Source: a virus. From it: 35,162 nucleotides of DNA. Numbering within the stretch: the first letter of the stretch is position 1; each line of letters begins with the position of its first letter. The stretch spans positions 1-35,162 of IMG/VR virus record IMGVR_UViG_3300049737_000088. One strand, 5' to 3'. The notes beneath the pieces were generated by a model that saw nothing but the letters and a program-made list of their open reading frames with translations, searched no databases and was not told the origin of the DNA. A program made the position numbers and the translations under genes. Below are positions 27,576-29,753 of the stretch, in pieces.

Positions 27576-28004
27576 TTAAAATTGGCTCACAACCGTGAAC
27601 CCACTAATCGGGTAATAGGCACAAACGTCACGATCCGCCGGATCGACTCTGTCTGACCTGCCACCCATTCTCACCGCAAACTCACTGGCAAAATTTATTC
27701 GCACCAATGCGTCGCGGTAGAGAACTATGAAGTACGACGGCAATCCGGTGCAAGCGGAAATGTCATGCGCCCGAATAACCTTGTGCAGGTTAATCATCGC
27801 CGTAGGGTACTTATTCATCTCAAATGTGCGTGCCTTGATCTCGGCAAAAGCCACAATCTTTTCTTCAAAATCGTCGGTGATGGCCACGTCTAGGCCAAAG
27901 CTCATTGGCAGCTTGTCGAGGCTGTAGCCCTTCTCCGCCAGCAAATCAGCGACCCGCTGCTCGTTGTTTCGGTCGGCCTGGGTTTCATAGATTGGCCTAG
28001 CCAT
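27576..28004 (-). CDS. PD-(D/E)XK-type nuclease, small
   Basis: This 142-aa protein has the nuclease-fold signature E15, GLDVAI (D39) and AFAEIKAR (E55-x-K57), followed by a helix (MINLHKVIRAHDISACTGLP) and a strand (YFIVLYRDALVRI). The layout fits small phage resolvase or restriction-like nucleases. It overlaps the cytosine methyltransferase by 8 nt. It could be a recombination nuclease or, less likely, a restriction partner of the methyltransferase. Confidence 0.65.
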   Translation of the reverse strand: MARPIYETQADRNNEQRVADLLAEKGYSLDKLPMSFGLDVAITDDFEEKIVAFAEIKARTFEMNKYPTAMINLHKVIRAHDISACTGLPSYFIVLYRDALVRINFASEFAVRMGGRSDRVDPADRDVCAYYPISGFTVVSQF

Positions 28005-29109
28005 TGTGCGCCTCTTTGATAGCCCACAATATCCGCGCCGCCACTTGAGGCACGATGCTATTCCCTAACTGTCTAAGTCTGTGTATCCGACCGGGTACCC
28101 CATCAACCACTCTACAAATTGCGGGTTCAGGCTCCCAGAAACTCTTTTCCCATCTGGCTTCTCCACTGCGTAATCCAGCCGATCCCTCATCGTCTCGTTT
28201 CTGCCCGACCCCTTGAAGTCGTTGGCTGTCGGCGTTGGGTACATCTTTATCTGATCCGCTAGGTTCGCCCCAAACACTAAATTGGGATTTGTCTTGCTGA
28301 TCCTTTGACCCTTCTCGTTCAGTGTCCTGCCGGATGTCACATCTGATGTTCTCGGCGTAGCCCACATCTTCGGCTCTTGCATTTTCACCGCCAGTGATAG
28401 GGGTGTTCCGCCCTGCGAATATTTCTTTTTTCTCAGCCCTGTGTCGTCTGCTACCGGCGTCGGCCACATCTTCGGCTCCTGCGCCTCCTGCCACTTCCTG
28501 ACCGTCTCTGGGTCTACCTGTTCCCTGAGGTTGCTCGGCAGCGACCTGCCCTTTCGATGACCTTCCGCCATCTTCTTGAGGCTCTCCTCTGACCTCTGCG
28601 GCAGATGATCCATTGAGTTCGGAGTAGCCCACAATCCAGCATCTGTCTCTGCGGTGGTAGGCATCCGCGGCGACAGCCGGAATAACAAAGCACCTTGCTT
28701 GGTATCCTTCGGCTTCCAAGTCAGAAAGCACCTCGTCGAGGCCCATAGAGATGTGTCCAGCAACATTTTCTCCAATAACCCAAGTGGGCCTGACAGCTTG
28801 GATAATTCTAAGCATTTCCGGCCAGAGGTGTCGGTCATCTTTATCGCCTCGTCTGACCCCGGCAAGGCTAAAGGGCTGGCAAGGATATCCGCCGCAAATA
28901 ATGTCAACTGATCCTCTGAATCTTTCTGCGTCATTTGCTAAATCCCTCACATCATCAATTATCTCTGTGTCAGGCCAATGCTTTCGCAATACCTTTTGCG
29001 CGTGTTTATCATATTCGCAAAACGCGACTGTCTCATAGCCACCCACCAGCTTTTCGCCAGCGTAGCTGAAGCCGCCAATGCCACTAAATAGGTCAAGCAT
29101 CCTAAGCAT
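27997..29109 (-). CDS. C5 cytosine DNA methyltransferase
   Basis: This is a 370-aa methyltransferase that adds a methyl group to cytosine C5 in DNA. Motif I is LDLFSGIGGF (5-14). Motif IV is GGYPCQPFS (73-81) with catalytic C77. Motif VI is GENVAG (113-118). Motif VIII is RRDRCWIV (153-160). Motif X is GNSIVP (349-354). Residues about 165-330, where the target-recognition region belongs, are unusually hydrophilic and repetitive (EDVADA, EDVGYA, KDVPNA) and are encoded in the same DNA as a second long frame. It probably protects phage DNA from host restriction. Confidence 0.92.
   Translation of the reverse strand: MLRMLDLFSGIGGFSYAGEKLVGGYETVAFCEYDKHAQKVLRKHWPDTEIIDDVRDLANDAERFRGSVDIICGGYPCQPFSLAGVRRGDKDDRHLWPEMLRIIQAVRPTWVIGENVAGHISMGLDEVLSDLEAEGYQARCFVIPAVAADAYHRRDRCWIVGYSELNGSSAAEVRGEPQEDGGRSSKGQVAAEQPQGTGRPRDGQEVAGGAGAEDVADAGSRRHRAEKKEIFAGRNTPITGGENARAEDVGYAENIRCDIRQDTEREGSKDQQDKSQFSVWGEPSGSDKDVPNADSQRLQGVGQKRDDEGSAGLRSGEARWEKSFWEPEPAICRVVDGVPGRIHRLRQLGNSIVPQVAARILWAIKEAHNG
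28065..28934 (-). CDS. Long nested ORF in another frame of the methyltransferase gene
   Basis: A 289-codon open frame lies wholly inside the methyltransferase gene on the same strand. It has an SD-like GAGGGA 8 nt before its ATG. The product contains GPLGLLEKMLLDTSLWASTR, then four copies of [LM][WY][AP]TP (LWATP, MWPTP, MWATP, MYPTP), and ends in LNPQFVEWLMGYPVGYTDL. From memory, very similar proteins are annotated in many phages, sometimes as 'DNA methyltransferase'. The conservation could be a shadow of the methyltransferase frame, so expression is unproven. The function is unknown. Confidence 0.45.
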   Translation of the reverse strand: MTQKDSEDQLTLFAADILASPLALPGSDEAIKMTDTSGRKCLELSKLSGPLGLLEKMLLDTSLWASTRCFLTWKPKDTKQGALLFRLSPRMPTTAETDAGLWATPNSMDHLPQRSEESLKKMAEGHRKGRSLPSNLREQVDPETVRKWQEAQEPKMWPTPVADDTGLRKKKYSQGGTPLSLAVKMQEPKMWATPRTSDVTSGRTLNEKGQRISKTNPNLVFGANLADQIKMYPTPTANDFKGSGRNETMRDRLDYAVEKPDGKRVSGSLNPQFVEWLMGYPVGYTDLDS

Positions 29110-29112
29110 GTC

Positions 29113-29562
29113 TTATTGCCTCGCCATCAGGTCGCGGCAAACCATAATGAAGTCAGGCCAAGACAGCGTCGCCGTGTAGCGCCAGTCGTATGCCTCAGCC
29201 ACATCCTGAGCCAGTGGCCGCCCTAACCGCGCCAGTGCCTCAATGGGTATCCGCACGCTTATGTCCTGCCGGTCTAGCTTCCAGATCAAGCACGGCAGGC
29301 AGTCGTTAGGATTGCCGTCTGACGTGCGGGCGGCGGTTACTATCTGATCCCACCAAGAAGATGACACGGCATTTTTATAGCGTTTAGCCTCAACCAAAAA
29401 GGGAAACCTTGGGTCAGTAAATGTGAGGTCTGATAGGTTTTTCTTTTGATATTGCTCAAGGTTTCTCTGGCACTTTCCAGCCGAGCCAAGCTCAAGCTCA
29501 AACTCTTTTGCCAAAAATCTTTCAAACGCTGCCCCCTTGGCACGTCCACCACCGGCACGCAT
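29113..29562 (-). CDS. PD-(D/E)XK nuclease, Holliday-junction-resolvase-like
   Basis: This 149-aa protein begins MRAGGGRAKGAAFERFLAKE. The pattern G-x-x-x-E (E14), LSDLTF (D45) and FLVEAKRYK (E58-x-K60), followed by a Trp/Gln helix (SSWWDQIVTAA), matches archaeal-Hjc-like and phage PD-(D/E)XK resolvases. It probably processes branched DNA during replication and recombination. The ATG at 29562 overlaps the stop of the RHH gene (TGATG), so it is cotranscribed with the regulator upstream. Confidence 0.7.
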   Translation of the reverse strand: MRAGGGRAKGAAFERFLAKEFELELGSAGKCQRNLEQYQKKNLSDLTFTDPRFPFLVEAKRYKNAVSSSWWDQIVTAARTSDGNPNDCLPCLIWKLDRQDISVRIPIEALARLGRPLAQDVAEAYDWRYTATLSWPDFIMVCRDLMARQ

Positions 29563-29753
29563 CAACCCCGCCCCGCCTGACGATCCATCTCAAACTGCAT
29601 ATTACGTTGCCGGGCATTTGCCTCAAGCTGTCTGACCAGCAACTCATCGGCAAGCGACGACTGCGACCTATGAGCCGACACGTCCAGCTCGGCCTTTAGC
29701 ATTTCGATGGTCGAGGCTCTGAGCCTCAACAAAACTGGTTTAATTTGTGACAT
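29562..29753 (-). CDS. Ribbon-helix-helix (Arc/CopG-like) regulator
   Basis: This 63-aa protein contains IKPVLLRLRASTIEMLKAEL, a beta strand followed by a helix as in the RHH fold. A second helix (SQSSLADELLVRQLEANARQ) follows and the tail is basic. Its size and position, as the first gene leftward from a divergent control region, fit a transcriptional repressor acting on the adjacent operator. It may autoregulate and control the rightward early operon. The ATG at 29753 has AGGAT upstream. Confidence 0.7.
   Translation of the reverse strand: MSQIKPVLLRLRASTIEMLKAELDVSAHRSQSSLADELLVRQLEANARQRNMQFEMDRQAGRG

Follow-up and report, generated by a model that had tools for sequence, protein, structure and literature searches.

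Organization of the locus

The window, by which we mean the whole analysed stretch of 35162 bases from an IMG/VR virus record, carries a C5-cytosine methyltransferase gene with a second open reading frame (ORF) lying entirely within it, in the +1 frame (Table 1). We refer to the product of the outer ORF as alpha and to that of the nested ORF, 289 codons plus a stop, as beta. A nested frame of 289 codons inside a gene for a 370-aa methyltransferase had been reported in the initial annotation, and its coordinates, ATG and length were reproduced exactly. Alpha matches PF00145 over residues 3-165 (1.6e-38) and aligns to M.HhaI 12-171, corresponding to motifs I-VIII, and again at motif X; the catalytic motifs I-VIII are present (FSGIGG, PCQPFS, ENV, R.R). 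Beta has no Pfam or NCBIfam match, and a profile search of the PDB with beta gave no match either. It does match (1.8e-36) the phage family phrog_1008, whose label is 'DNA methyltransferase'.

Two differing putative phage PDDEXK endonucleases flank the pair at 27576-28004 and 29113-29565 of the window (minus strand), with PDDEXK_14 downstream and PDDEXK_15 upstream. As these flanking genes are kept in close relatives only, we do not propose a dedicated restriction partner.

Table 1. Features of the overlapping gene pair in the window, with the evidence for each.
Feature	Position	Strand	Evidence
Alpha, outer ORF, 370 aa; predicted C5-cytosine methyltransferase catalytic subunit with motifs I-VIII and X, no motif IX	27997..29109	minus	PF00145; M.HhaI alignment; motif IX profile without match
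Beta, nested +1 ORF, 289 aa; N-terminal part over alpha motifs IV-VIII, four ~40-aa blocks, motif IX	28065..28934	minus	Stops, selection, profile matches
Putative beta translation start region, GTGAGGGATTTAGCAA ahead of ATG 28934	28935..28954	minus	Start-context inspection; Shine-Dalgarno survey
Beta aa 1-100, N-terminal part over alpha motifs IV-VIII, with conserved ST.C.LTWK...LLFRL segment	28635..28934	minus	Conserved columns; dNN/dNS 0.37
Beta block 1, type A, LWATPNSMD..., aa 101-155	28470..28634	minus	Block clustering; AlphaFold2 model best there
Beta block 2, type D, MWPTPVADD..., aa 156-189	28368..28469	minus	Block clustering
Beta block 3, type C, MWATPRTSD..., aa 190-230	28245..28367	minus	Block clustering
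Beta block 4, type I, MYPTPTAND..., aa 231-265	28140..28244	minus	Block clustering; similar block in Escherichia phage K1ind2
Beta aa 266-289 with motif IX (LNPQFVEWLMGYPVGYTDL)	28068..28139	minus	Motif IX profile; in-frame chains align to M.HhaI 272-308
Alpha aa 168-336, outer-frame reading of the block region, inferred passenger linker	28102..28608	minus	pLDDT mostly <50; dNN/dSN ~1
Alpha motif X (RQLGNSIVPQ)	28045..28074	minus	M.HhaI alignment; AlphaFold2

Division of the conserved motifs between the frames

The C-terminus of beta corresponds to motif IX (LNPQFVEWLMGYP). A profile of the nested C-terminus (LNPxWVEWLMGYPxGWTDL) matched 15 of 15 methyltransferases with an in-frame motif IX, at the position expected, and none of 95 outer proteins. 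At this position the 15 chains can be aligned to M.HhaI 272-308, a short stretch that starts from motif IX and runs on into motif X and is a weak match when taken alone. As motif IX is present in the nested and absent from the outer protein, the nested protein supplies a piece that the outer one lacks.

In the AlphaFold2 model of alpha, residues 1-165 are mostly confident and residues 340-370, with motif X, are ordered, while residues 168-336 are disordered, with pLDDT values mostly below 50 and no secondary structure. Alpha thus does not combine motif IX and a target-recognition domain in one chain: motif IX is found in the +1 frame only, and alpha is predicted to be disordered in this region. 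The isolated beta was modelled with medium confidence (pLDDT 63), best in block 1, and a fold search with this model returned meaningless matches only.

Exchangeable blocks in beta

Between the N-terminal part and motif IX, beta is built as a row of one to five blocks (median 40 aa) that each open with [LM][WY][PA]TP. The shared MWPTP anchor linked all blocks, and clustering was done without it for this reason; 125 of 188 blocks then fell into 33 recurring types. The row of the window reads A-D-C-I. In close relatives that share 89-92% identity with the window in the catalytic DNA, it reads P-C-I (L010), A-Q-E (L011) and P-D-?-E (L012), with common blocks nearly identical; for L011 and L012 a flanking gene product is also 91-96% identical to that of the window. 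Escherichia phage K1ind2 carries a block like type I, and one block of Salmonella phage SEN4 resembles type J by eye. The repeats shared by the two frames, which had been noticed in the initial annotation, are the block borders: EDVADA, EDVGYA and KDVPNA of alpha (nt 28473, 28371 and 28248) are read from the same DNA as MWPTP, MWATP and MYPTP of beta, e.g. AAGATGTGGCCGACGCCG.

In one relative (L007, phage C75C1, 1817-3199) the nested frame is open across nearly the entire methyltransferase gene, over 460 codons and about seven blocks by eye.

A row of exchangeable ~40-aa blocks between motif VIII and motif IX is a feature of multispecific enzymes with tandem target-recognition domains, and beta has such a row. 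In the multispecific enzymes of Bacillus phages each target-recognition domain comprises ~40 aa. We infer, with no block as yet linked to a target, that the blocks are target-recognition domains arranged as an exchangeable array. Unlikely, in our judgement, is an enzyme with a single target in which beta is real and needed through motif IX, with blocks that are merely structural repeats or spacers. The interiors of the blocks fall into at least 33 divergent, recurring types that are swapped wholesale, which fits specificity domains better than spacers, and both the length and the position of the blocks match the tandem domains of the Bacillus phage enzymes. Spacers nevertheless keep some support from the common N-terminal signature of the blocks, from their number, which varies from 1 to 5, from the lack of an assigned target and from the weak model of isolated beta.

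Translation start of beta

The start of beta lies at a near-constant place, a median of 169 nt downstream of the alpha start. A Shine-Dalgarno match of at least 5 nt, mostly AAGGAG, is found upstream of 52 of 78 beta starts, compared to 8.1% for a match of the same size at other out-of-frame ATGs of the same genes, and in most relatives AAGGAG stands 7-9 nt upstream of the beta ATG. The start context in the window is TGATGTGAGGGATTTAGCAAATG; the ATG and the Shine-Dalgarno-like GAGGGA previously described for this frame are both present, GAGGGA being weak as a Shine-Dalgarno sequence. A near-constant start codon with a Shine-Dalgarno sequence, and the fact that alpha requires its own 3' end for motif X, make it very improbable that programmed frameshifting joins the frames into an alpha-beta fusion instead of two subunits, even though some genes do have a single-chain layout.

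Single-frame counterparts

A scan for FVEWMMG identified 63 overlap genes and 29 genes with motif IX in the outer frame. Among 24 of the latter that were inspected, outer-frame blocks are missing from 19, most of which retain PTP-type blocks in a nested ORF; in L173, L204, L254, L280 and L285 the blocks are in frame too, along with motif IX. In some actinobacterial-type genes, blocks and motif IX lie in frame between motifs VIII and X. The in-frame blocks of L254 share 51% identity with the nested blocks of L234 (1e-20) and 71% over 38 aa with those of L194. Hence, by homology to the in-frame blocks, the nested blocks correspond to the stretch between motifs VIII and IX in which the target-recognition domain of C5-methyltransferases lies.

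A layout intermediate between the two, with motif IX in the catalytic chain and PTP blocks still nested, was seen in L169, L177, L190, L195, L207 and others.

Overprinted proteins often have accessory roles, and the phage context would suit a beta whose role lies apart from methylation, e.g. as an anti-defence factor. We find this hardly credible, since beta bears exactly the motif missing from alpha, and in some enzymes the catalytic domain is fused, in one frame, to the blocks and motif IX. The evidence instead makes beta the motif IX and target-recognition subunit of a split C5-methyltransferase, where the role in target recognition is inferred and neither expression nor activity data are at hand.

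Stop codons and selection in the two frames

Stop codons were counted in a region bounded by the outer frame alone, from motif IV to motif X, with shuffled synonymous codons as the null, and loci were gathered with the nested protein and, separately, with the outer protein. The window gene has 0 stops in the +1 frame against 4.29 expected, and 18 in the +2 frame against 17.7 expected. For the 37 loci found via the outer protein, 0.46 stops were observed in +1 against 4.9 expected, and 26 loci were free of +1 stops against 0.56 expected; the +2 frame tracks the null (16.9 stops against 17.4). Stop codons common in the second frame of relatives, which the initial annotation had named as grounds for refutation, are nearly absent, and this in the nested frame only.

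A viral sample, picked solely by the catalytic GFPCQPF codons, contained 72 C5-methyltransferase genes in which motif X could be recognised. Of these, 53 have the overlap and carry motif IX in +1, and 10 more resemble them. The other 9 do not, and in most of them the +1 frame is little open; a C5-methyltransferase gene thus does not by itself create such a frame.

Selection was assessed on 33 disjoint pairs with our own OLGenie-like count, in which changes are classed by their effect in each frame; as the loci share descent, the widths of the intervals are only approximate. In the codons before the overlap, which served as a control, dSN/dNS was 5.7 (4.7-7.1), as expected if the outer frame alone counts. 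The ratio was 2.0 in the overlap with motifs IV-VIII, 0.72 (0.58-0.85) in the variable region and 0.82 (0.57-1.09) around motif IX, and in the region of beta aa 1-100 dNN/dNS was 0.37. For homologous blocks grouped by the nested protein, dSN/dNS was 0.23. Because pairing by beta similarity could favour beta, the blocks were re-paired by DNA and by the alpha protein. Grouped and aligned as DNA they gave 0.21 (0.17-0.25), and grouped by the outer protein 0.51 (0.38-0.63), an effect in the same direction but weaker. In the DNA-grouped blocks the identity is 79% for beta and 47% for alpha, with beta higher in 49 of 49 pairs, and in blocks of the same type the outer frame is near neutral (dNN/dSN 1.17, 0.99-1.37). 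By this count, the nested frame is the constrained one in the block region and the outer frame is near neutral there. A check on purifying selection in the second frame had been suggested beforehand; the signal is found in the 3' half of the nested frame.

A shadow ORF, open and conserved merely through the methyltransferase protein and its codon usage, would be in keeping with the strong conservation of the motif IV-VIII part of alpha, from which the nested similarity there is partly inherited, but it is rejected as next to impossible on stop depletion, on the selection pattern of the blocks and on the genes without overlap: the frame closes under synonymous shuffling, C5-methyltransferase genes without an overlap exist, most of them with little open +1 frame, the nested protein is better conserved than the outer one in the block region, and nested-type blocks with motif IX are found in frame in other enzymes. 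The choice between genuine overprinting and a persistent annotation shadow, left undecided in the initial annotation, falls to overprinting on the stops and on purifying selection in the second frame, and as far as sequence analysis can tell the nested frame is real.

Distribution

In bacterial genomes the motif IX pattern identified 89 overlap loci, and further loci that were missed by the motif IV pattern overlap on inspection. The bacterial loci come from Bacillota, Bacteroidota, Pseudomonadota, Planctomycetota and others, and among annotated phages the pair occurs, for example, in Paenibacillus, Lacticaseibacillus, Bacteroides and Escherichia phages; in phage Shelly the nested gene is annotated as 'g55 internal gene'. 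The statement of the initial annotation that similar nested proteins are widespread is thereby borne out, in phage annotations as well as in the viral sample and in bacterial genomes. The pair, occurring in phage contigs and in bacterial genomes of many groups, is usually annotated as a single gene, and the nested protein is commonly annotated as hypothetical or just as 'DNA methyltransferase'.

Some loci depart from the usual layout. A marine phage (L006, KT997847.1, 2228-2500) has motif I in the nested and motif IV in the outer frame, as though a single base had been gained or lost near locus position 2350-2488, and the pieces are annotated as separate methyltransferase genes. In L291 (556-1663, reverse complement) the nested frame continues past motif IX through a second motif X-like segment. 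One chromosome record of Roseovarius sp. (OX638333.1) carries two overlap loci with motif IX (L316 and L337).

To our knowledge, long same-strand overlapping genes with evidence of selection over their full length are few in phages and bacteria. As some homologues have these parts in one frame, the pair offers a clean natural test of selection shared between frames.

A proposed split methyltransferase

We propose that the two frames encode the two subunits of one C5-cytosine DNA methyltransferase, with exchangeable and, by inference, DNA-reading blocks in beta, and assign this reading a probability of about 0.87. The overlap, the selection on beta, the presence of motif IX in beta, the shuffling of the blocks and their in-frame equivalents have their support in sequence analysis. 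The formation of a complex is inferred, in the absence of expression, activity or target data. Alpha would bind AdoMet and bear the catalytic cysteine (motifs I-VIII) together with motif X. Beta, starting at its own ATG within the alpha gene, would supply motif IX and the row of ~40-aa exchangeable blocks; motif IX would complete the fold, and beta is inferred to make up the small, DNA-reading domain of the enzyme, with the blocks as target-recognition domains and possibly several targets per enzyme.

The DNA of the block region would be shaped mainly by beta, and alpha would be an open, nearly unconstrained linker there, leading from motif VIII to motif X. The repeated MWPTP/DVADA DNA at the block borders may allow blocks to be exchanged without breaking either frame, and relatives could thus gain new combinations of targets. 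We lean, with some reserve, towards the nested frame being a combinatorial specificity cassette in the alternative frame of its catalytic partner, with borders that serve recombination in both frames, phages that reassort their targets and an outer frame that is a passenger, kept open to reach motif X. A likely use of the enzyme, and with it any protective role, is likewise inferred: the phage DNA would be guarded from host restriction by orphan methylation. Should the blocks indeed be target-recognition domains, the annotated protein would not reveal the targets of many phage methyltransferases, and specificity would have to be predicted from the other frame.

Comparison with known systems

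M.AquI is a natural two-subunit C5-methyltransferase (PMC3404938). The small subunit of this enzyme (CYCGRG) comprises part of the variable region and motifs IX-X, which is not a nested-frame design of the kind seen in the window. Several tandem target-recognition domains in one enzyme are found in the C5-methyltransferases of the Bacillus phages SPR, SPbeta, phi3T, rho11 and H2 (PMC8936443). These are single polypeptides in a single frame, whereas the block row of the window lies in a nested frame, on a separate subunit.

The same nested layout is present in Escherichia phage K1ind2, where both ORFs are annotated, ORF29 as 'putative C-specific methylase' and ORF28 as 'putative Mte8-like protein'. 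The nested protein of K1ind2 aligns to the beta profile with a probability of 99.4% (E 5.8e-21). It differs from that of the window in having fewer blocks and a motif IX diverged to LNPAHSRWLMGYP.

Lee, Kam and Shaw reportedly found in 1995 that the small gene of M.EcoHK31I lies inside the large gene, in another frame. M.EcoHK31I (YGGCCR) consists of two polypeptides; motifs I-VIII and X belong to the larger, and motif IX occurs in the smaller alone (PMC3404938). The window pair resembles it in layout, with two predicted chains, and shares two features of the M.EcoHK31I type: the smaller ORF lies wholly inside the larger one in another frame, and motif IX is confined to the small chain, motifs I-VIII and X being found in the large one. 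The nested subunit of the window's family differs in its one to five exchangeable blocks. For M.EcoHK31I the predicted target-recognition domain was placed in the larger subunit (PMC3404938), whereas in the window pair the outer variable region is predicted to be disordered and is near neutral, and we infer the domain to lie in the nested subunit. Our inference thus conflicts with the published placement, which rests on prediction alone and is not known to be a defining feature of the type.

The name of phrog_1008, 'DNA methyltransferase', hides the fact that this family includes beta, a nested and non-catalytic ORF. C5-methyltransferases of two polypeptides, one such split enzyme reportedly since 1995, and tandem target-recognition domains were known already. 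What is new, with the identity of the blocks as target-recognition domains being inferred, is a row of blocks of this type in a nested frame and on a separate subunit.
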